This document shows positions 820 to 45,829 of a DNA stretch of 49,782 nucleotides, one piece after another. The stretch is from a virus. Numbering within the stretch: position 1 is the stretch's first letter; every line of letters begins with the position of its first letter. Below the pieces are notes generated by a model. It was not told the origin of the DNA. It saw nothing but the letters and a program-made list of their open reading frames with translations, and did no database searches. Made by a program: the position numbers and the translations under genes. Location of the stretch: IMG/VR virus record IMGVR_UViG_3300032285_003041, positions 1-49,782 of that record; one strand, 5' to 3'.

Positions 820-1298
820 GTATCAGTAGAGATGTACTAGCTGCAGTTAACGAGCTAGGGTTTTCATTAACTCCAAAGCCAGAGGTAGATATTCCCATGC
901 TTCCTCGTGATATTACTGAGCTGGATGATGAAGGTCTAATGGATCTATTTGTACAGTTTACTCAATGGAATGATCACCTTGCCGGTGCTCAAGCTATTGC
1001 TGTTATCAATGAGCGTGAAGCACAGCGTAATCTAGACAACGCAGAAGCCAAGGCAATGCTTAAGCATTGGACTGGTGCTAAAGGTGACCGTGTAGCTCTT
1101 GTAAAAGCACAGATTGCTGATAGCCAAGAGATTCAAGATCTGCAACATGAGCTTGATGTTAAGTATGCTTTTCGTAAACTAATTGAGACTAGAACTATGA
1201 ACGTAGAACGAGACTCGCAGCTTGTATCACGTGAGCTTACACGCCGTACTTCAGATGGTGGTGGGATGAGGGCTAGAACTAGGAGGTTCAATACATGA
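816..1298 (+). CDS. Conserved phage-type hypothetical protein, helical
   Basis: Unrecognised 160-aa protein, mostly charged helices. GTG at 816 is preferred over the earlier in-frame TTG at 792 because AGGAGG lies at 806-811, five bases before it. The sequence has an acidic N-terminal part and a C-terminal basic tail (RTRRF). It lies between a Cas4-like nuclease and a dNMP kinase with 4-base overlaps on both sides, so it probably belongs to the DNA-metabolism operon. An accessory factor for the nuclease is possible, but no motif shows this. Confidence 0.85.
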   Translation: MSISRDVLAAVNELGFSLTPKPEVDIPMLPRDITELDDEGLMDLFVQFTQWNDHLAGAQAIAVINEREAQRNLDNAEAKAMLKHWTGAKGDRVALVKAQIADSQEIQDLQHELDVKYAFRKLIETRTMNVERDSQLVSRELTRRTSDGGGMRARTRRFNT

Positions 1299-1849
1299 TC
1301 GTAGGATTAACAGGTTACGCACAGTCAGGTAAAGATACTGTAGCTAAAGTCTTAGTAGAGAACTATGGTTTTACTAGAGTAGCTTTTGCAGACAAGATTA
1401 GGGAGTATCTTTACGAGGTAAATCCTATGTATGATTCTATTGTCGGAGAGCCTATGTTTGTAAGGGCAAAGGTAGATCGTGACGGTTGGGATGATGCTAA
1501 GCAGCATCCTCAAATTAGACGCTTATTACAAAATGCAGGTGTAGGTGCTCGTAAACTTTTTGGCGATGCTTTCTGGGTTGCCAAAGCTGTAGAGGGTTTA
1601 GACTGGAACAAGAACTATGTTTTTACTGATGTTAGGTTTACTAACGAAGCTAACCTACTTAAGAAGTGGACACCAGAAAATACTCAAATCTGGCGTATAA
1701 AGCGTGTAGGTGTTCAGGCTGTAAACGGACATGTTTCAGAGCATGAAATGGATGGGTATAAAGTAGACCAGATCTTTGCTAACAACGGGACTATTGAAGA
1801 CCTAGAGCTTATGGTTAAAACAAGGATGGTGGCATACGCAAATGGCTAA
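1295..1849 (+). CDS. Deoxynucleoside monophosphate kinase
   Basis: Phosphorylates dNMPs to dNDPs, feeding the phage dNTP pool together with the ribonucleotide reductase at 17.5 kb. The 184-aa protein starts with a P-loop (GYAQSGKDT, residues 7-15), where the SGKDT form is characteristic of phage dNMP kinases. It continues with a VAFADKIRE segment as in the substrate-binding region and FTDVRFTNE near residue 110, typical of the family. ATG at 1295 overlaps the previous stop (ATGA). Confidence 0.88.
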   Translation: MIVGLTGYAQSGKDTVAKVLVENYGFTRVAFADKIREYLYEVNPMYDSIVGEPMFVRAKVDRDGWDDAKQHPQIRRLLQNAGVGARKLFGDAFWVAKAVEGLDWNKNYVFTDVRFTNEANLLKKWTPENTQIWRIKRVGVQAVNGHVSEHEMDGYKVDQIFANNGTIEDLELMVKTRMVAYANG

Positions 1850-14487: not shown

Positions 14488-15402
14488 ATGGATTTTGAGA
14501 GATATGAAGACGCACCCAGCATTACACCTGGGTCTACTTCCTATTTCAGTGCGCCTTCATCTAACTTAGATCCTAAGCTTTTTCAAGGTGATCACCTAAA
14601 TGCTTGGGTTCGTTCTGGCGTCCTAACTATGCTCTTTGAGTATTTGGTTAAGCACTACGCTGAGCCACATACATGGACGCACGCATGGCTTGCAGGATCC
14701 GGAGTTTCTTTTCAATGGGAAGCTTCAAGGGAACCAGGTGACCTGGATTGCTTAGTGGGAATTGATTACGTCAAGTTCCGTCAAAGCAATCCAGAGTTCA
14801 TCGGTTACTCAGATTTGGAAATTGCAAAGACTTTCAATGAAGGCTTCAGTGCAGACCTTATGCCTAGTACACGTAACTGGGAAGGCTATGAGCTTACATA
14901 CTATGTAAATCCACAATCAGATATTAGGGATATTAATCCTTATGCTGCATACGATCTGACTGCGGATCTTTGGACTGTATACCCAGACCGTAATCCTCAA
15001 CCACCATACAGCCGTGCTTGGGAACAAAAGACTATGCGGGATGAGGATATGGCAAAAGATATGCTTCGTAAGTATTCAGATGCTTTAAACGAAGTTCGTA
15101 ATACTGCCAACCCTGCATACCGTATCAATGCGGAGCGTAAGCTTCGCCTAGCAATGGAACAAGCCGTTGCTTTCTATGACGATATTCATCAAAATCGTCA
15201 CGTAGCATTCAGTAAGACGGGGGCAGGGTATGCAGACTTTAACAATTACCGTTGGCAAGCTGGTAAGCGTTCTGGTGTAGTGCAGGCCCTAAGATCTATC
15301 AAAGAACATAAAACATCTTTGGATGCTGAAGTTCAAAAGCAAACTTACGGCATAGAGTTACCGGATGCATCTACTGTAGTCCGGAGAACATTGCGTGGTT
15401 AA
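14488..15402 (+). CDS. Nucleotidyltransferase-fold protein
   Basis: A 304-aa protein with the signature of the Pol-beta-like nucleotidyltransferase superfamily: AGS at 69-71, thirteen residues, then DLDCLV at 85-90 (pattern G-S-x13-D-h-D-h). The third carboxylate cannot be fixed by eye. Members add nucleotides to RNA, proteins or small molecules; the substrate here is unknown. The C-terminal half is helical (LRKYSDALNEVRNTANPAYRINAERKL) and could act as a partner domain as in MNT/HEPN pairs, which is inference. It overlaps a 33-aa zinc knuckle gene. Confidence 0.68.
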   Translation: MDFERYEDAPSITPGSTSYFSAPSSNLDPKLFQGDHLNAWVRSGVLTMLFEYLVKHYAEPHTWTHAWLAGSGVSFQWEASREPGDLDCLVGIDYVKFRQSNPEFIGYSDLEIAKTFNEGFSADLMPSTRNWEGYELTYYVNPQSDIRDINPYAAYDLTADLWTVYPDRNPQPPYSRAWEQKTMRDEDMAKDMLRKYSDALNEVRNTANPAYRINAERKLRLAMEQAVAFYDDIHQNRHVAFSKTGAGYADFNNYRWQAGKRSGVVQALRSIKEHKTSLDAEVQKQTYGIELPDASTVVRRTLRG

Positions 15403-15496: not shown

Positions 15497-15961
15497 ATGG
15501 CTACAGCTCTCATCTCAGTTGAGGGAGTAATGAAGACTGAAGGTGGAGACCCAATTCAAGAGGGCATCCGTCTTTATCGTATTCTTGCTGAACAATATCG
15601 TGTGGTTATCTGCTCTGACCAGTCTAATGAATTAACTGAGCACTTTCTCCGTAGCAATATGATTGTTGGGTATGCCGATATCTATGATGATAGGCATTTT
15701 TTTGAGGGCCAGGATTTGAGGGCCCGCCATCTTGATATGGCTTTAGCTCGTGGTAAAGTCGCATTGTTTATTGACCCGGACGCAGACCGTTGCGCCTATG
15801 CTCTATCTAAGAACGTAACTACCCTTATGTTTGCTGAGCCTAAATTTGTACGTACAACCCGTATGGTAAAACCTTGGGAAGACCTTAAGGTAGAGATTGA
15901 ACGCCAACGGGATGCCTTGCTTGAAGCCCACCTCGGAAGCCAGATTAAGCGCTACGAATGA
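15497..15961 (+). CDS. HAD-like protein with altered catalytic motif
   Basis: A 154-aa protein resembling HAD-superfamily phosphatases: a hydrophobic strand then SVEGVM where the active family has DxDGT, a middle SDQS (motif II-like) near residue 41, and ALFIDPDADRCAYAL near residue 88 as in motif IV. The first Asp is replaced by Glu/Val context, so catalysis is doubtful. It ends in an ATGA overlap with the TGT-like gene, suggesting a joint role. Confidence 0.6.
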   Translation: MATALISVEGVMKTEGGDPIQEGIRLYRILAEQYRVVICSDQSNELTEHFLRSNMIVGYADIYDDRHFFEGQDLRARHLDMALARGKVALFIDPDADRCAYALSKNVTTLMFAEPKFVRTTRMVKPWEDLKVEIERQRDALLEAHLGSQIKRYE

Positions 15962-17436
15962 ACATAGTCTTCATGGGCGGAGAAGTACCCTCACATAGAA
16001 CTCTCCTGACTGGTGTCGGGGTTAAACACATTAGCATCAACTACTTCAGGCTGGTTAAGCGTGGACTCCCAAAGACCAAAGATTATCTGCTCAAGGGTAG
16101 GTTCCCTGATGATGTCCTGATCTATGTAGATGGTGGTGGGCATCAAATCAATGATCTGAATATGACACAGCGTGAGCTTGAAGAGTACGCCGCTAACTAT
16201 CAGGATTGGGTTGCTATTAATGAAGATAGAATCCACCTTGCCACAGAGTTAGATGCCACAGCTTTAGGACCTAATTGGATTAATCACCAGCGTCGTACTT
16301 TTTGGGAAGACTTTGGTCTAGAACGCACCTCTATGGTGTGGCACTCAGAAACAGGCCACACTGGTCTCTACAACCTCGCAGAACAATATCTCAACGTTTC
16401 TATCTTGGGTGAGACAATTGAGGACGATACGAGCCTTTCAGCCCGTTCTAGAGCCCTTTTGAGCCAGTTCCCAGACCTGCAGTTGCACGGAATCGCATGT
16501 GCTAAGCCAGATAATTTGAGGCAAGTACCTGTAACTACGGCTGCTACCCTGTCTTGGTTAAGTCCGATGATGAGAGGCGAGACAATTGTCTGGGATGGCA
16601 CTAGACTAGTCCGCTATCAGAAGAAACAAAAAGACCAGGCTCGTCCCCGCTACAAAGCGATCATCGAGAAGGCCGGATTAGACTTCGACAAGATTATGAA
16701 TGACGATAGTAACGAGGTTACCCGCCTTGCTATCTGGAGTTACCTGCAGCTCGAGAAATCATTAGACAAACAAAGGAAGCCCATGTTATCTGATAACAAC
16801 GATCCATTAGATAGTGCAGGATCTGCGGAAACCCGTGGGGTCAGTCCTGATAATAGAGGTGTTGAGGTGCGGAAAGATTTGACTGCCCGCAAGCCTGAAG
16901 AGATGACAACGCTGCCCGTTTTTGGTGTTACAACCAAGACAGTTTTTGAAAAAGACATTGATGGAAGAGACATTTTGAGAGATGCTCCGGTCTTAGAGAG
17001 TACTCAAACTTCCTTCCGTCAGTGCAATACCTGCTTCGTGGCAGCCAATTGTCCGGCCTTCAAACCGAACAATTCTTGCGCCTTCAGCCTTCCAGTTGAG
17101 ATTAAGACCAAGGAGCAACTCAAGGGATTACTTAACGCAATTATCGAAATGCAGGGCGCTAGAGTCGCTTTTGCACGTTTTGCTGAAGAATTAAACGGCG
17201 GATACCCGGATCCAAATACCGGGCAAGAGATTGACCGACTCTTTAAGATCGTAAATGAGGTCAAGAAATTAGAGGAGAACAAAGAGGTTCTCCGCATGAC
17301 CGTGGAGCGTCAAAGCTCTGGTGGAGTCATGTCGGCACTATTTGGAGACCGGGCAAATACCCTAAAGGAATTGTCTGGAAATGGTTTAAGCGAAGGGGAT
17401 GCCAGCAAAATAATCAAAGACCAATTAGAGGGGTAG
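15958..17436 (+). CDS. TGT/DpdA-like protein with Cys-rich C-terminal extension
   Basis: A 492-aa protein. Residues 1-240 follow the order of motifs of phage tRNA-guanine-transglycosylase-like (DpdA) enzymes: GGEVPSHR near 7, YVDGGGHQIN at 57-66 in place of the catalytic DSG loop, LDAT near 98, WHSETGHTGL near 129, LHGIACAKPDNL near 178, then TTAATLSWLSPMMRG. DpdA exchanges guanine for a 7-deazaguanine in DNA. No preQ0 synthesis genes lie in this window. The C-terminal half has CNTC-x5-NC-x7-C near residues 352-372, a possible zinc or Fe-S site, and a charged helical tail. Assignment rests on motif order only. Confidence 0.5.
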   Translation: MNIVFMGGEVPSHRTLLTGVGVKHISINYFRLVKRGLPKTKDYLLKGRFPDDVLIYVDGGGHQINDLNMTQRELEEYAANYQDWVAINEDRIHLATELDATALGPNWINHQRRTFWEDFGLERTSMVWHSETGHTGLYNLAEQYLNVSILGETIEDDTSLSARSRALLSQFPDLQLHGIACAKPDNLRQVPVTTAATLSWLSPMMRGETIVWDGTRLVRYQKKQKDQARPRYKAIIEKAGLDFDKIMNDDSNEVTRLAIWSYLQLEKSLDKQRKPMLSDNNDPLDSAGSAETRGVSPDNRGVEVRKDLTARKPEEMTTLPVFGVTTKTVFEKDIDGRDILRDAPVLESTQTSFRQCNTCFVAANCPAFKPNNSCAFSLPVEIKTKEQLKGLLNAIIEMQGARVAFARFAEELNGGYPDPNTGQEIDRLFKIVNEVKKLEENKEVLRMTVERQSSGGVMSALFGDRANTLKELSGNGLSEGDASKIIKDQLEG

Positions 17437-22392: not shown

Positions 22393-24249
22393 TTAACGGC
22401 CACGCTTTTTGATAGCGCCTGTTACTACTGCCTTAGCAAATGGTAGAAGATCACGAGCAGACTTGATACGACCATATACTTCAGTACCATGACGCCATGT
22501 TTTTTCCTCTATACCACGGTTTTCGTAGTATTCCATTTCTTTATCATCCATGATCAATGTCATGACTGTTAGGACACCACGCTTGGAAATACGTTCGATA
22601 ACTTCATCATTCTTGTTAGCATCAAACGCACCATCGGTGATTAAGAACAGCATCTTATTCTTCTTGCGGGAAGAGATAAGCAACTGCTCTGCAGCAAGCA
22701 ATGTAGAGTACGGATTAGTACCACCATTGCCATAGATGAACTTGTATTGTGTCTTACTAGCCATCTCATTACGGCCGTAAGCTAACTCAGCCTGATCATC
22801 AAAAGCATAGACTGTAACTGGAGAACCAATCTGTTCTAGAGCACGTTTGATAGTCCAGCATGCAACTGATGCATGCATATCATTACGTCCACTAGACATT
22901 GAACCTGATCTGTCTACCATGATTACTGCTTCGATATCGGCACCATCAGTACCCTCATCCCAACGGTCAAAGGCTTCGTCAATCTCACAGCCTCTGATTA
23001 CACGTTGGACATTGAGCTTACCGCTGGCTTCTTCTTTGTGCCATGCTGGTTCACACTCATCACGCAATCGCTCTAACTCACGAGCAAATTTACGATAGAG
23101 AACAACAGACTCAGGAGGCACAGTTGTTAGATCAAACCGGCCTTTCTTGAGTACGTCTTCGTGCTTACCATCGCCACCTACAATTACTTTTTGCTTCGTC
23201 TTAACATCCTGCTGAACATCTTTACGTTCTAGCACTGCCTGGATGGTATCCTCAAGCAACTCATGTAGATTGTCTGGTATTCCACCAACGCTTTGCACAT
23301 GGCCTTCACCAGCAACAGGTATTCCATCTAATGGTTTACCTTGTTCTTGTGATTGCTCTCTAAGTGCTAGAGCTTCTGCGGCTGTTTGTGGTTGCGGTGG
23401 TTTGTTTGTGTTGGAAGGTTGACTTGGGTTAGGCTTTTGAGTTACTTGTGTAGACTCAGCTTTGCCCATGCCACCTGCACGACCAGCGTCTCTCTCCTGT
23501 GCTTTGCCAGGTTCAGGACGACCCTTACCTACTGGGTCACGAGAACTACAACCATTAGGACCTTGAGGCATTTTAGGAAACGGAAGTTTCTGTAGTACCT
23601 CATCATTCCAACGCTTGATTAATTCCTGTGCCTTGGCATAGTCACGTGGAAATGCCAGTAAACGATATTGATCTACAATATCTGCAATTACTGGGATTAG
23701 TTCAGGCTTAGCAAACATATCTCTGAATGCTTGCCTGATTTCAATTGGTAGATACCTACGACCACGAACTAGCATATAGTTACCTATTGCTTCGTCCGGT
23801 GTACTTGATAGCCACCTAGCACACGTAGCTGTTAGATACGGTGCGACTGATGGATAACGAGCAACTAGTAGAGTTTCGATACGCTGGTCTTCCAGCATAT
23901 TTGCTGCCTCCATGTAGTTGTTATCTATTACCCACTTCATGAATGTGGTACCACGACGTGGAGTATAAAGGTGATGAGCAAGCTCATGATAGTTGAGGCC
24001 ATTGATTTGAGTTAGTGTCTCAAGATCAATCTCCTCAATCTCACTAGCATTAAAGGTAATAGAAGCACCGTCAGACCAAGCTGGTGCTGGACCGTCTTCC
24101 ACTACGTTAATGATTACCGGATCTCCGGAGAGAACACGGTCTGCTTGTTCATACACACGACAAAGAGCATTGAGTCGCACAGCACGAAGCTGTGTTTCCT
24201 CACTGTCATCTCGTCTATACCACGCTTCATTCAGGTCTTCTTGAAACAT
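22393..24249 (-). CDS. HExxH plus VWA protein (CobT/NorD-like), partner of AAA+ ATPase
   Basis: A 618-aa protein. N-terminal part: NYHELAHHL (residues 87-95), an HExxH motif as in putative metallopeptidases, then NMLEDQRIE near 117-125, the segment found in CobT/NorD-like proteins. Middle: a Pro/Gln/Gly-rich linker (225-325). C-terminal VWA domain with an intact MIDAS, DRSGS (D446, S448, S450), NGGTNP and ITDGAF. Such proteins act with a MoxR/CobS AAA+ ATPase, here the gene just upstream, in metal insertion or protein remodelling. The target is unknown. Confidence 0.87.
   Translation of the reverse strand: MFQEDLNEAWYRRDDSEETQLRAVRLNALCRVYEQADRVLSGDPVIINVVEDGPAPAWSDGASITFNASEIEEIDLETLTQINGLNYHELAHHLYTPRRGTTFMKWVIDNNYMEAANMLEDQRIETLLVARYPSVAPYLTATCARWLSSTPDEAIGNYMLVRGRRYLPIEIRQAFRDMFAKPELIPVIADIVDQYRLLAFPRDYAKAQELIKRWNDEVLQKLPFPKMPQGPNGCSSRDPVGKGRPEPGKAQERDAGRAGGMGKAESTQVTQKPNPSQPSNTNKPPQPQTAAEALALREQSQEQGKPLDGIPVAGEGHVQSVGGIPDNLHELLEDTIQAVLERKDVQQDVKTKQKVIVGGDGKHEDVLKKGRFDLTTVPPESVVLYRKFARELERLRDECEPAWHKEEASGKLNVQRVIRGCEIDEAFDRWDEGTDGADIEAVIMVDRSGSMSSGRNDMHASVACWTIKRALEQIGSPVTVYAFDDQAELAYGRNEMASKTQYKFIYGNGGTNPYSTLLAAEQLLISSRKKNKMLFLITDGAFDANKNDEVIERISKRGVLTVMTLIMDDKEMEYYENRGIEEKTWRHGTEVYGRIKSARDLLPFAKAVVTGAIKKRGR
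23402..23414 (-). repeat. Copy c of the CCAACACAAACAA element, inside the VWA gene
   Basis: Perfect copy inside the linker of the VWA gene, read in frame as SNTNK. A partial copy (GTTTGTGGTTG on the plus strand) lies just before it at 23383-23393. Confidence 0.55.
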
Positions 24250-24258
24250 TTACCCTCC

Positions 24259-25668
24259 TTAGACTGTGGCTGATTGTGCTGTTACCCATTGTGCTAGCTG
24301 GGTATCAATGTCAACATCTTTTTCCTTCTCGACTTCAATAGGCACTTCAATGCCAAAGTCAGTCTTGATGTTGTGTTCGTGTGTCTGGAATACCAAACGC
24401 ACAGATGCTTGCTCATCTGCTGAGAAGTGAGCAATGAAGTTCTCAACTGCAAAGTCATAACCAAGATCTTCATCCTTGATGAACTCCTCGATTTCCATGA
24501 GCATATTGGTTGAGATTGGAGTTTCATACTGACCCTTAGCTGCTTCAGCACGCAATTGCTTGACTAGAAGTAGCAAAGACTTAGATGAAACAAGCTTGGC
24601 CTCGACTGCGTCGTCGTAATCCCACATGAACTGCATGTCGAAACGATTACGCATAGCGAAGTTAAGCGGAGTTGTACCGATGTATTCTGGGTTCATGGTT
24701 GCAAAGATTGTTAAGTCTTTGTGACCTACGATTGTTTCACCCATGTGGTCTAGCAATGTGATGGTACGACGACCATCAGTCAATGGATAGAGCGTGGTGT
24801 AGATCTTAGGGCTGATGAAGTTAAACTCATCAAGCAATAGAACGCCACCATTACGCACTACGTCTGTAACTGGACCGTCAATCCAGCCATAGCTACCAGT
24901 GCCATCAGGAATAAAGCCGCCGAATAGTTGGCGAGATTCCATAGATGCATTACCAGATACTGTAGCCATACGAAGGCCACGAGCTGCGGCCCACGCTTCT
25001 ACAGCTGTTGTCTTACCAGGACCGGTTGGGCCATAGATAAGAACGTTGATGTGCTTCTTACGTGCTTTATCGAAAGTCTTGAAGTCTTCGACTCCGTAGA
25101 TCTTACGATGAATGTATCGTTCCGCCAATTCGATTGGAGGAACTGTAGCCAACGATACTGCAAACGATTTGGATGTTGTCTGTTGTTCAGGGGCAGCATC
25201 TTCGTTTGTTTGTGTTGGAACTGGCACTACCAATGGAACTGTAGTGCTAGTTGAAGCACGATTATCTGTTACGTATGTTTCCAATGAATCATCTCCCATA
25301 CTGATTTGTTCGTAGAAGTTACAAAGAACATCTACTAGTGGTGTTGTATCTGTTGTTGGTTCAGCCTTGGCATGCTTGTCGCAAGCCTTGGTACCCAACA
25401 CTGGTGAGTATCCCTTGGATGTCATTGCACGTTCATCTGCTGGAGTAACATATACGCCAACAGGTGTTCGTGTCAATATCTCACTATCCAAGATGTTACC
25501 GGTTAGTTCATCAAGAGTAGTTTCCTCCCACTTATTGTGAGGGCCCTTTGTTCCGTCAGTTAACCGAGAGTACACACGCACATTATTGTCGTGTGGAGTA
25601 ATGAGAACTTGACGGCGCTTACCATCAAGGTTCTCACTATGTGATTCAGTGAACATTGCTATGTCCAT
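24259..25668 (-). CDS. MoxR/CobS-type AAA+ ATPase
   Basis: A 469-aa protein. The first ~175 residues are a variable domain ending in a Pro/Thr/Gln-rich linker. The AAA+ domain shows Walker A GPTGPGKT (213-220), Walker B VLLLDE (276-281), sensor 1 FATMNP (322-327) and RNRF with a putative Arg finger (340-343). The layout is like CobS and MoxR ATPases that drive a VWA partner; the VWA gene follows ten bases later. Known phage relatives include CobS-like proteins of aquatic phages. With a B12-dependent RNR in the same genome, a cobalt-chelatase-like role is possible but unproven. Confidence 0.87.
   Translation of the reverse strand: MDIAMFTESHSENLDGKRRQVLITPHDNNVRVYSRLTDGTKGPHNKWEETTLDELTGNILDSEILTRTPVGVYVTPADERAMTSKGYSPVLGTKACDKHAKAEPTTDTTPLVDVLCNFYEQISMGDDSLETYVTDNRASTSTTVPLVVPVPTQTNEDAAPEQQTTSKSFAVSLATVPPIELAERYIHRKIYGVEDFKTFDKARKKHINVLIYGPTGPGKTTAVEAWAAARGLRMATVSGNASMESRQLFGGFIPDGTGSYGWIDGPVTDVVRNGGVLLLDEFNFISPKIYTTLYPLTDGRRTITLLDHMGETIVGHKDLTIFATMNPEYIGTTPLNFAMRNRFDMQFMWDYDDAVEAKLVSSKSLLLLVKQLRAEAAKGQYETPISTNMLMEIEEFIKDEDLGYDFAVENFIAHFSADEQASVRLVFQTHEHNIKTDFGIEVPIEVEKEKDVDIDTQLAQWVTAQSATV
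25206..25218 (-). repeat. Copy d of the CCAACACAAACAA element, inside the ATPase gene
   Basis: Perfect copy inside the AAA+ gene linker, read in frame as PTQTN. Confidence 0.55.
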
Positions 25669-28688: not shown

Positions 28689-28803
28689 TGTTTCTCCTCT
28701 CTATATGAGTAATGAGCAGTTTTAATGGACGTGCTCAGGTCCTCTAGCGTAAGCGAGGGAGGTTTTCGCATCCAATGCTCCCGCCATCCGTGCTGTACTA
28801 GCG

Positions 28804-28876
28804 TGCCCTCAGCCAGAATCGAACTGGCAACACTCACCTTAGGACGATGATGTTCTATCCATTGAACTATGAGGGC
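28804..28876 (-). tRNA. tRNA-Arg (anticodon CCT)
   Basis: A 73-base cloverleaf: acceptor GCCCTCA/TGAGGGC, D stem GTTC/GAAC, anticodon stem TCATC/GGTGA with loop GTCCTAA (CCT, reads AGG), T stem GCCAG/CTGGC with loop TTCGATT, discriminator A. CCA is not encoded. It reads a rare arginine codon in many bacteria. Confidence 0.93.
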
Positions 28877-34903: not shown

Positions 34904-34976
34904 TGGTCTTTAGCTCAGTCGGCAGAGCGTAGAGCTGTTAACTCTAATGTCCCTGGTTCGAGTCCAGGAAGACCAG
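34904..34976 (+). tRNA. tRNA-Asn (anticodon GTT)
   Basis: A 73-base cloverleaf: acceptor TGGTCTT/AAGACCA, D stem GCTC/GAGC, anticodon stem TAGAG/CTCTA with loop CTGTTAA, T stem CCTGG/CCAGG with loop TTCGAGT, discriminator G. CCA is not encoded. Confidence 0.94.
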
Positions 34977-34982
34977 CACGGA

Positions 34983-35143
34983 GTATGAGTCTGAACAACT
35001 CATACAAAGTTAGTTGTACCGAAACCTACCCTGTGAGCGCATCATACGAAGGTGTTCAGACCGATGGAGATTGCTCTGCTAACTCACTAGGTACAACAGT
35101 CAGCAGGTGGTTTAGATTAAGAATCAAAGCCGTGGCTGACACA
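34983..35143 (+). other. Non-coding spacer with nested inverted repeats
   Basis: Between tRNA-Asn and tRNA-Met. GTATGAGT (34983-34990) pairs with ACTCATAC (34998-35005). GTTGTACC (35013-35020) pairs with GGTACAAC (35090-35097), enclosing GTGAG/CTCAC (35033-35037 with 35083-35087) and CATC/GATG. The outline is tRNA-sized but I cannot find a T-loop or an anticodon stem, so I do not call a tRNA. Confidence 0.4.
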
Positions 35144-35144
35144 T

Positions 35145-35219
35145 TGCGGAGTAGAGCAGTTCGGTCAGCTCAGCAGCCTCATAAGCTGAAGGTCGTGGGT
35201 TCAAATCCCTCTTCCGCAA
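35145..35219 (+). tRNA. tRNA-Met/CAT-anticodon tRNA
   Basis: A 75-base cloverleaf: acceptor TGCGGAG/TTCCGCA, D stem GAGC/GCTC, anticodon loop CTCATAA (CAT), T loop TTCAAAT, discriminator A. The anticodon stem has a G-A mismatch at its base and the T stem one T-T. CAT could be elongator or initiator Met, or Ile if the C is modified to lysidine; I cannot choose. Confidence 0.9.
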
Positions 35220-35383
35220 CGGAGTAACACTTGTATGGCGGTATATATTTTAGTTAGCTACTAAAAAGAACGTTGACTGTTTACGCAAGTATGTAGGGGT
35301 TTCTAGAGCAGCCTACACGGTCTCGTCAGGGGACTCGGTTACAGACCTTACGGCGTGGTGAAAGATAAACCGACCTGACACAT
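35220..35383 (+). other. Non-coding spacer between tRNAs
   Basis: 164 bases without a supported gene. TTTTAGT (35248-35254) pairs with ACTAAAA (35260-35266). GTAGG/CCTAC and GGTCT/AGACC pairs follow. No tRNA core can be found in it. Confidence 0.4.
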
Positions 35384-35454
35384 TCTCCATTCGTCCAACG
35401 GCAGGACTCCTGTTTTTGGCACAGGCAATCGTGGTTCGAATCCACGGTGGAGAG
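35384..35454 (+). tRNA. tRNA-Gln (anticodon TTG)
   Basis: A 71-base cloverleaf: acceptor TCTCCAT/GTGGAGA, D stem GTCC/GGAC, anticodon stem CCTGT/ACAGG with loop TTTTGGC (TTG), T stem CGTGG/CCACG with loop TTCGAAT, discriminator G. CCA is not encoded. Confidence 0.94.
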
Positions 35455-35500
35455 CAAAGTGTAGTTACAATGGCTACCCCGCCGAAAAGTTTAGGAAGTT

Positions 35501-36221: not shown

Positions 36222-36788
36222 ATGACAACATTAGTAGCAATTCAAGGTGACGGCTGGTCTGTTATCGGATGCGACTCTCGTGCATCTGGTGAAGATGGCC
36301 GTTATATGGAATTAGCAACACCTAAGATTGTTGATAACAACGGTGTGCTTATTGCTGTCTCTGGCGCATCCCGTGGTGGAAATATTACTCAATTTGGTTG
36401 GAAGCCACCAAAACCTCGTGCTAACGAGAATTTAGACATGTTTGTAACAAAGCGCTTTATTCCTGAGATGCGTGAAGCTTTTATTAAAGCCGGTTATGAT
36501 GCCAAAGATGATGGCGATGCTGCAGGACACGACTCTAACCTAATTGTTTCAATTCGTGGCGTCCTTTACCCAATCTTTGAAGATTACTCTTGGGATCGTG
36601 AAGCCCGCAACGTTTACTACGCCGGTAGCGGCGGAGATGTGGCTCTTGGCGCACTTGAAGCTTTAGACTACTCTAAGGCTAAAAGTCCAGCGGCTGCCGA
36701 AAAAATCTTACGCAGAGCTGTAGAGATTGCCTGTAAGCACGATATTTATTCTGGCGGAAAGATCATTACACACATACAAGAAGCCTAA
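36222..36788 (+). CDS. Proteasome-beta/HslV-like Ntn hydrolase
   Basis: A 188-aa protein with the proteasome beta-subunit signature: MTTLVAIQGDGWSVIGCDSRAS with Thr2 as N-terminal nucleophile after Met removal, Asp18 (D17 in mature numbering) and Lys35 in TPKIV (near canonical K33). SGASRGGN, then HDSNLIVSIRGVLYPI and YYAGSGGDVALGALEAL follow as in beta-type subunits. It may be a protease for head maturation, a decoy subunit or a protease acting on host proteins; choice not possible from sequence. AGAGGG precedes ATG 36222. Confidence 0.78.
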   Translation: MTTLVAIQGDGWSVIGCDSRASGEDGRYMELATPKIVDNNGVLIAVSGASRGGNITQFGWKPPKPRANENLDMFVTKRFIPEMREAFIKAGYDAKDDGDAAGHDSNLIVSIRGVLYPIFEDYSWDREARNVYYAGSGGDVALGALEALDYSKAKSPAAAEKILRRAVEIACKHDIYSGGKIITHIQEA

Positions 36789-44029: not shown

Positions 44030-44255
44030 TCGTAAAAGCAAAACTACAAAAGAATTAACAAAGGTTCAACGCAGAGTAAATTCCTTGCCTACTCAAGAGC
44101 TACTTACCTGGACAGATCAAATTATGTACTCGGTTGGTCGTAACTTGTCTGCTTGGCAAAAAACTCAGTACAAAGACAATTTAGCAGAGGCAAAACTTGG
44201 AGCAGAATCTTTAAGCGCTATTTTAGATACCTTAAGTGAAAGACACGGCCTGTGA
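44016..44255 (+). CDS. Hypothetical helical protein before terminase
   Basis: A 79-aa helical, basic protein (MKIFNRKSKTTKELTKVQRRVNSLPTQELLTWTDQIMY), overlapping the terminase start. By position it might be a small-terminase-like or packaging partner; no clear helix-turn-helix is seen. ATG 44016 is used. Confidence 0.7.
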   Translation: MKIFNRKSKTTKELTKVQRRVNSLPTQELLTWTDQIMYSVGRNLSAWQKTQYKDNLAEAKLGAESLSAILDTLSERHGL

Positions 44256-45829
44256 GCGAATCCCAGTTTGATGAGTTAGAACCGGAAGATTTTGACGAAG
44301 ATGGCAATGTCCTGCCAGAAGAGGTTGAAGACGACGGTTTAGATGAGCTCTCTAAGGAGTTTGTTAAAGCTCTTGTAAATAAAATCATGGACTTTCAAAA
44401 AGTTCTTGTCGGCCATGAGCTGCACCCATATCAGACACCTCTAGCTAGAAGGTTGATAGAGTCAGTCATTATCAATGACGGTGAAGAAATCACAGCTCTT
44501 GCCTCTCGTCAGAGTGGTAAGTCAGAGACCATTGCTAATACAGTGGCCACACTCATGGTTATCCTTCCACGCCTTGCAAAGATGTATCCAGAGCTACTTG
44601 GTAAGTTTGGTGATGGAATTATGGTGGGTATGTTCGCACCGGTTCAATCACAGGTAGAAACCCTATACGGCCGTACAGTATCCCGCCTTACTAGCGAATC
44701 AGCCCTAGATGTTCTTGGTGATCCTGAAATTGACGATATGGTAGCTAAAACACCTGGCGTAGTAAGGAACATCCGACTTAAGAACTCAGGCAGTAGCCTT
44801 ATGATGATGACAGCAAACCCTAGAGCTAAAATTGAATCTAAGTCCTTCCACCTAATTATTATTGATGAGTGTCAAGAAGCTGATGACTTTGTAGTGGCCA
44901 AATCAATTGCCCCTATGGGTGCTTACTACAACGCTACTATGGTTAAGACCGGTACACCTACTACACACAAAAACAACTTCTATAAAGCTATTCAGTTTAA
45001 CAAACGTAGGCAAACAGGTCGCAATGCCCGTCAGAACCATTTTCAATGGGACTGGAAAGATGTTGCAAAAGTAAACGCTAACTACGAAAAGTTTATTAAG
45101 AAAGAAATGCTGCGTATTGGAGAAGACTCAGACGAGTTCCAACTCTCCTATAACTGTAAGTGGTTGCTAGAACGTGGTATGTTCGTAACATCCAGTATCA
45201 TGGAAGACTTAGGCGATACCTCGCAGGAACTTGTAAAGTCTTGGCACCGTTCACCAGTCGTAGTGGGAATTGACCCAGCACGCAAGATGGACTCAACTGT
45301 AGTAACTGTTGTGTGGGTAGATTGGGATCGCCCTGATGAATATGGATACTATGATCATAGAGTATTAAATTGGTTAGAACTGCAGGGAGATGACTGGGAA
45401 GAACAATATTTCCAGATACAACAATTTCTTGGAGCATACGATGTGCTTGCTATAGGAATTGACGCCAATGGTGTTGGTGATGCAGTGGCCGGAAGATTAA
45501 AAGTTCTTATGCCTCGTGCTGAAGTAATTCCGGTTACATCAAGCCCTACAGAACAATCTAAGAGATGGAAGCATCTCCAAGCGTTAATTCAACGCCAGAT
45601 GGTCTCATGGCCTGCCCATGCTAAGACTCGTCGCCTACGTATTTGGAAAAAGTTCTACCAGCAAATGACGGATGCCGAAGTTCAGTACAAAGGCCCTAAC
45701 TTTTTGGTAGCTGCTCCAGATGAAGCCCACGCCCACGATGACTTTGTGGACTCTTTGGCTTTAGCATGTTCCCTCACACAAGAACTAGTTATGCCAACAA
45801 TTGAAGTTTCGGCAAGTCCTTTCTTCTAA
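44252..45829 (+). CDS. Terminase large subunit
   Basis: A 525-aa DNA-packaging motor. ATPase domain: SRQSGKS (Walker A, near residue 86) and LIIIDEC (Walker B, near residue 202), TGTPTT coupling motif near 230. Nuclease domain: VVGIDPARKMDST (near 339), AIGIDANGVGD (near 405) and HDDFVDSLALA (near 500) supply the acidic residues of the RNase H-like site. GTG 44252 starts in a TGTGA overlap. Confidence 0.95.
   Translation: MSESQFDELEPEDFDEDGNVLPEEVEDDGLDELSKEFVKALVNKIMDFQKVLVGHELHPYQTPLARRLIESVIINDGEEITALASRQSGKSETIANTVATLMVILPRLAKMYPELLGKFGDGIMVGMFAPVQSQVETLYGRTVSRLTSESALDVLGDPEIDDMVAKTPGVVRNIRLKNSGSSLMMMTANPRAKIESKSFHLIIIDECQEADDFVVAKSIAPMGAYYNATMVKTGTPTTHKNNFYKAIQFNKRRQTGRNARQNHFQWDWKDVAKVNANYEKFIKKEMLRIGEDSDEFQLSYNCKWLLERGMFVTSSIMEDLGDTSQELVKSWHRSPVVVGIDPARKMDSTVVTVVWVDWDRPDEYGYYDHRVLNWLELQGDDWEEQYFQIQQFLGAYDVLAIGIDANGVGDAVAGRLKVLMPRAEVIPVTSSPTEQSKRWKHLQALIQRQMVSWPAHAKTRRLRIWKKFYQQMTDAEVQYKGPNFLVAAPDEAHAHDDFVDSLALACSLTQELVMPTIEVSASPFF

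Follow-up and report, generated by a model that had tools for sequence, protein, structure and literature searches.

The tRNA-guanine transglycosylase (TGT) superfamily includes phage DpdA, the DNA 7-deazaguanine insertase, and the question raised by this locus is whether a phage protein bearing the name of such an enzyme still exchanges bases. The window, i.e., the whole stretch of DNA analyzed, is a single virus record of 49,782 bases. It contains an ORF of 492 amino acids (15958–17436, + strand, ATG start), exactly where the first-pass annotation had placed it. That annotation had pointed out a resemblance to TGT and DpdA and proposed that the protein, if active, may insert a deazaguanine into phage DNA or act on tRNA. 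Our analyses support the resemblance and suggest a different function.

A two-part protein of the PHROG 887 family

The protein matched PHROG 887, "queuine tRNA-ribosyltransferase", over residues 1–472 and the full profile length (E 1.6e-51). No Pfam or NCBIfam family matched it, a PDB sequence search gave no significant match, and PADLOC had no defense-system model for it or its neighbors. At least 507 confirmed candidate relatives were detected in IMG/VR, and none with the C-terminal pattern was found among 84,980 bacterial and archaeal genomes; thus, by that test, this is not a host gene. Cultured relatives (31–32% identity) occur in Streptomyces phages BRock, GiJojo, pSt2308, LuckySocke and Alone3. 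BRock gp36 and GiJojo gp181, which also belong to PHROG 887 and are annotated as "queuine tRNA-ribosyltransferase" and "dpdA-like tRNA-guanine transglycosylase", are full-length homologs with the same fused, two-part architecture. For residue counts, 173 distinct relatives were reduced to 91 representatives at <90% identity.

The N-terminal part (residues 1–272, 15958–16773) is a barrel domain of TGT/DpdA fold. It is followed by a variable linker (residues 273–318, 16774–16911) with pLDDT below 50 and weak constraint, and then by a Cys/helical half. The extra four-Cys half reported in the initial annotation is indeed present, as about 220 residues after the barrel: it carries the motif C356-x2-C359-x5-C365-x8-C374 (17023–17079), a probable metal site, and a helical block (residues 385–440, 17110–17277), which is the most conserved stretch of the protein, is helical in the models and has the consensus EMQ..R..F.R..EE.NGGY.DPN..EIDRLFK. 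The dN/dS ratio was 0.06–0.12 over the whole ORF and 0.045–0.096 in the barrel (eight pairs); in the linker it was 0.06–0.84, usually the highest among the segments. Values of 0.05–0.10 indicate strong constraint and therefore a gene that is not decaying, which rules out the decay of a useless gene as an explanation.

Fold and DpdA ancestry of the barrel

An AlphaFold2 model built with 35 relatives had a pLDDT of ~90 for residues 1–272 and low confidence beyond. The nine best PDB matches of the model in Foldseek were all TGTs. VIA-align gave Z scores of 17.4–17.8 against bacterial, archaeal and human TGTs and 17.4 against the DpdA crystal structure 7ui4, so that the comparison with DpdA and TGT structures called for in the first-pass annotation returned a TGT-type (beta/alpha)8 barrel. 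Moreover, hhalign aligned the protein with a profile of seven phage DpdAs at 96.6–97.9% probability (E 6.5e-10 to 4.5e-13), and, when whole records were scanned, the DpdA profile picked out the fused protein in BRock and GiJojo and in two IMG records (E 1e-14 to 8e-20). The ancestry is therefore backed by sequence as well as by the predicted fold. The family shares this fold and ancestry with the DpdAs of phages CAjan, 9g and Rosebush, and the His of their LHxxG strand is kept.

DpdA2 of Vibrio phage nt-1, another member of the TGT superfamily (PMC6884629), is similar in length to the window protein. Membership in DpdA2 was ruled out: the hhalign probability to nt-1 DpdA2 was 0.2%, with no detectable profile similarity, and DpdA2 has no counterpart of the conserved DpdA His (His196), whereas H177 is present in 91/91 representatives. 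Unlike the window family, nt-1 DpdA2 also keeps the Asp residues of its VDSGG and YDSS motifs and has no Cys cluster.

Loss of the catalytic aspartate

The TGT reaction involves two Asp residues: Asp280, which attacks the sugar, and Asp102, which assists the incoming base (PMC6165067). The equivalents in CAjan DpdA are D206 (SCDSSSW) and D63 (DSGAF). Our hhalign alignments placed A196 of the window protein, within TAATLSW (residues 194–200, 16537–16557), on CAjan D206, and D58, within YVDGGGHQ (residues 56–63, 16123–16146), on D63. The latter segment had been described as the catalytic loop. It has the reported sequence, but it is the base-recognition loop; the nucleophile position is elsewhere, and the nucleophile is lost.

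This loss extends to the whole family. Position 196 is Ser in 82 representatives, Ala in 6 (the window protein and five others) and Thr in 3, and in none of the 91 is it Asp. BRock gp36 and GiJojo gp181 show the same loss (SVSSTSW / SVASTSW) and, unlike the window protein, keep a DSG recognition loop. Position 58 has drifted, with Asp in 45 representatives, Glu in 20, His in 16, Thr in 7, and Ala, Asn and Ser in one each; at least 8 changes of residue class were counted on a quick tree with some long branches. Other positions are fixed. H177, N88, E97, R112, W200, G207, T209, W212 and the four Cys do not vary among the representatives (91/91), and only Glu or Asp occurs at position 208; the active DpdAs aligned have non-acidic residues at the sites that match 97 and 208. 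A basic stretch, RYxKKxKDQARxR (residues 219–231), is nearly invariant. These patterns suggest that TGT chemistry as known is gone while the protein stays under selection.

preQ0 genes and phages with a split form

QueC, FolE and QueD-type PTPS were absent from all 22 fused-form records searched (the window and 21 related ones, most near 100 kb and some perhaps incomplete), whereas positive controls were detected. Thus, for QueC, FolE and QueD, the earlier remark that no queuosine genes are in view holds for the window and extends to these related records. Given the lost nucleophile, the drifted recognition loop and the absence of the preQ0 genes searched for, base exchange would not be expected, and we consider it quite improbable as the function of this protein. 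The deazaguanine insertion into DNA or exchange in tRNA proposed earlier is accordingly not favored by our data. In addition, a second DpdA was found in none of the 15 fused-form records tested. The Pfam ParB_N profile detected no ParB-like partner gene, but it likewise failed to detect the one annotated in StAugustine.

Hutinet et al. 2019 (PMC6884629) described phages that have a singleton DpdA and lack the pathway genes. Phage Orion, which has only dpdA and whose host has no pathway, had no modified bases in its DNA, and the question was raised there whether such singleton subsets have diverged in function. The text searched mentions neither Streptomyces nor BRock.

A different arrangement was observed in three distant phages, in which two separate, adjacent genes encode the barrel and the Cys part: Bacteroides phage BS162P1, human-gut phage MT835482 and IMG/VR record 3300034102_001739 (L274). 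Both halves are homologous to the fused protein. In contrast to it, the split DpdA halves keep TDSGAF and the nucleophile Asp (SVDSVTW, SSDSS, SVDSTSW), and the pair adjoins QueC. QueC, FolE and PTPS are all present in BS162P1, and QueC also in MT835482 and L274; in L274, a QueE-like gene, assigned by eye, also follows the pair. As the three phages are mutually related, they provide one contrast rather than many, and the nucleophile and the preQ0 genes may have been lost in one event, with no repeated association between the two losses. Nevertheless, the two arrangements, split and fused, offer a before-and-after pair for a base-exchange enzyme losing its chemistry under strong selection. In MT835482, the DpdA-like gene (L257, 1518–3716) apparently contains an intein with a homing-endonuclease-like middle, located inside the catalytic motif (SSDSS / ... 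VVHN / TTWLGG).

The C-terminal module and terminase-annotated proteins

Since the four Cys are invariant in 91/91 representatives, the cluster is not due to chance. The first-pass annotation had treated the Cys-rich half as an oddity; instead, the module proved to be common to the partners of split DpdAs and to proteins annotated as terminase small subunits (TerS). In the split form, the Cys protein encoded on its own matched PHROG 887 at E 8e-20 and the Streptomyces fused proteins at E 7e-11 to 9e-12 in tblastn, and the split Cys proteins share the CxxCx5Cx8C spacing.

The module has further homologs at the C-terminus of proteins of 447–544 residues that are annotated as TerS or as hypothetical and whose genes lie immediately upstream of terL in phages of Gordonia, Rhodococcus and Tsukamurella. 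With eleven TerS-annotated proteins, hhalign gave 91–93% probability (E 1e-6 to 2.8e-7) and a score of 48.4, whereas none of 60 column shuffles scored above 20.0; an earlier profile comparison with five TerS sequences had reached only 22%. The exact CxxCx5Cx8C spacing was present in all eleven, and these proteins (PHROG 16015 and 6902) have a similar GG-D-EID block. In whole-phage scans, the family C-terminal profile detected the TIN2 TerS at E 9.6e-7, missed the Jumbo TerS and matched nothing in two phages with an ordinary DpdA. The reverse TerS profile hit the correct gene in BS162P1 (3e-5), L274 (0.002), BRock (0.014) and the 100-kb record L119 (0.02), and did not match the window protein itself. 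A scan of IMG/VR with the Mbo2 TerS gave no matches. The N-terminal halves were only marginally comparable: their score of 28.1 exceeded the shuffle maximum of 20.2, yet the probability was 8%. When modeled alone, the C-terminal domain gave a low-confidence structure (pLDDT 62, pTM 0.34) that matched nothing in the PDB at E 1e-3.

Neighboring genes

Two conserved genes precede the DpdA-like gene. The first encodes a protein of 304 amino acids (14488–15402, + strand), which is 39% identical to BRock gp39 and matched nothing in Pfam, NCBIfam or PDB sequence searches. By motif (GS...DxD...E, with an ExT), we assigned it as nucleotidyltransferase-like; G70, S71, D85, D87 and E135 are invariant in 77/77 sequences, and the gene occurs in 205 of the 208 loci with enough flank. 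The second, which lies between it and the DpdA-like gene, encodes a 154-residue HAD-like protein (15497–15961, + strand; 187/208 loci) that was assigned by eye, has few invariant residues and is 29% identical to BRock gp38. The same two upstream genes accompany the homologs in BRock and GiJojo, with one extra gene (gp37) between them and the DpdA-like gene in BRock. The record L119 (IMGVR_UViG_2522125155_000001) has genes for the fused and the HAD-like proteins, and a BRock-type nucleotidyltransferase was not detected in it. A class II ribonucleotide reductase gene follows the DpdA-like gene in 182/194 loci; this adjacency may be mere genome order. The terminase large subunit gene of the window (44252–45829, + strand) is 28 kb from the DpdA-like gene, and the corresponding distance in BRock is ~71 kb. 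No TerS was recognized near terL in the window, and none is annotated in BRock.

Possible function

The fused chain goes back to two phage proteins, a DpdA and the Cys protein that was its partner. The explanation we prefer, with a probability of about 55%, is that this TGT-superfamily protein no longer exchanges bases and has been repurposed to bind nucleic acid without inserting deazaguanine. The Asp that forms the covalent nucleic-acid intermediate is lost family-wide, which would leave the protein incapable of base exchange, while strong purifying selection preserves the barrel fold, N88, E97, R112, H177 and an acidic residue at 208. TGT and DpdA barrels grip nucleic acid and the basic stretch is retained, so nucleic-acid binding is the simplest reading. 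The barrel would then serve as a binding platform, presumably for DNA, with RYxKKxKDQARxR as a candidate contact; the probably metal-binding Cys/helical module may provide a partner or DNA-end function, and the protein probably works with the products of the upstream nucleotidyltransferase-like and HAD-like genes. A point against this explanation is the Ser that occupies the nucleophile position in most of the family, at which a different chemistry is conceivable, although the window protein and five others have Ala there.

A rival explanation, on balance doubtful, is that the protein initiates packaging or acts as a small terminase subunit, with a dead DpdA barrel and a TerS-type Cys module that recognize phage DNA. 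It is consistent with the homology of the module to proteins encoded next to terL, with the recovery of BRock and the split Cys proteins by the reciprocal profile, with a Foldseek match of our model to the Gordonia Jumbo TerS (E 9e-5) and with the lack of a recognized TerS in the window and of an annotated one in BRock; the N-terminal score above shuffles weakly suggests a degenerate barrel in those TerS as well. However, the gene is far from terL here and in BRock rather than directly upstream of it, and the N-terminal match has a low probability. The TerS names of the relatives are based on gene position and annotation, and we know of no experiment behind them. Furthermore, the Cys module sits in preQ0 operons of the split-form phages, which points to a modification-linked origin. 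It is rather unlikely on present data that a base-modifying transglycosylase without its chemistry, joined to the Cys module, gave rise to a TerS-type DNA-recognition or packaging protein and that the TerS-annotated proteins of the Gordonia, Rhodococcus and Tsukamurella phages are other offshoots of this DpdA-plus-Cys lineage. About as likely as a packaging role is a new enzyme, in which the barrel would have been refitted with new acids around E97, H177 and E208 and would act, together with the nucleotidyltransferase, on a nucleotide or a nucleic-acid end. The invariance of E97, N88, R112 and H177 and the constant acidity of position 208, set against non-acidic equivalents in active DpdAs, indicate that there could be new catalysis rather than none, and the neighbor with catalytic-type residues is nearly always present, also in Streptomyces phages; but its superfamily is known by motif only and it was not detected in L119.

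An active DpdA or TGT supplied with its base by the host, as the first-pass annotation envisaged, would need a substituted nucleophile and is improbable. The fold is intact, H177 and mostly D99 (D156-like) are conserved, D58 is kept in about half of the family including the window, and hosts can in principle supply queuine precursors; a DpdA whose host provides the base has no strict need of phage preQ0 genes. Against these features stand the lack of the nucleophile Asp in all 91 representatives (it is Ala in the window), the replacement of the recognition Asp/Glu by other residues in 26/91, the absence of the QueC, FolE and QueD genes from the 22 records searched and the unmodified DNA of Orion (PMC6884629). 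By analogy with QTRT2, the eukaryotic non-catalytic subunit that pairs with the active TGT QTRT1 and sets a precedent for an inactive TGT paralog without base exchange (PMC6165067), the protein might instead be such a subunit; this is very improbable, as no second DpdA or TGT with which it could pair was seen in the 15 fused-form phage records.

The label attached to PHROG 887, "queuine tRNA-ribosyltransferase / dpdA-like", probably misstates the function. It has been copied onto phage proteins incapable of the TGT reaction by the known mechanism, this family alone having hundreds of members in IMG/VR, and label-based counts of deazaguanine-modified phages would therefore be inflated. The shared C-terminal module also connects DNA-modification genes with DNA-packaging genes, a connection that is testable in the cultured Streptomyces phages.

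Other features of the window

Several other genes in the window were observed. A pair on the minus strand (22393–25668) encodes a MoxR/cobaltochelatase-type ATPase-like protein (PHROG 249, "porphyrin biosynthesis") and a CobT-like protein; the pair is conserved in many relatives, and the phage also has the class II (cobalamin-type) ribonucleotide reductase. The product of another gene (36222–36788, + strand, PHROG 1040) resembles HslV-family peptidases and may be either a protease of the prohead or a peptidase of proteasome-like type. There are also four genes for tRNAs, namely Arg(CCT), Asn(GTT), Met(CAT) and Gln(TTG), at 28803–28876 and 34904–35455; tRNA-Asn(GTT) carries queuosine in many bacteria. 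A deoxynucleoside monophosphate kinase (PHROG 139) is encoded at 1295–1849 (+ strand), and genes for such kinases accompany modified-nucleotide pathways in some phages.
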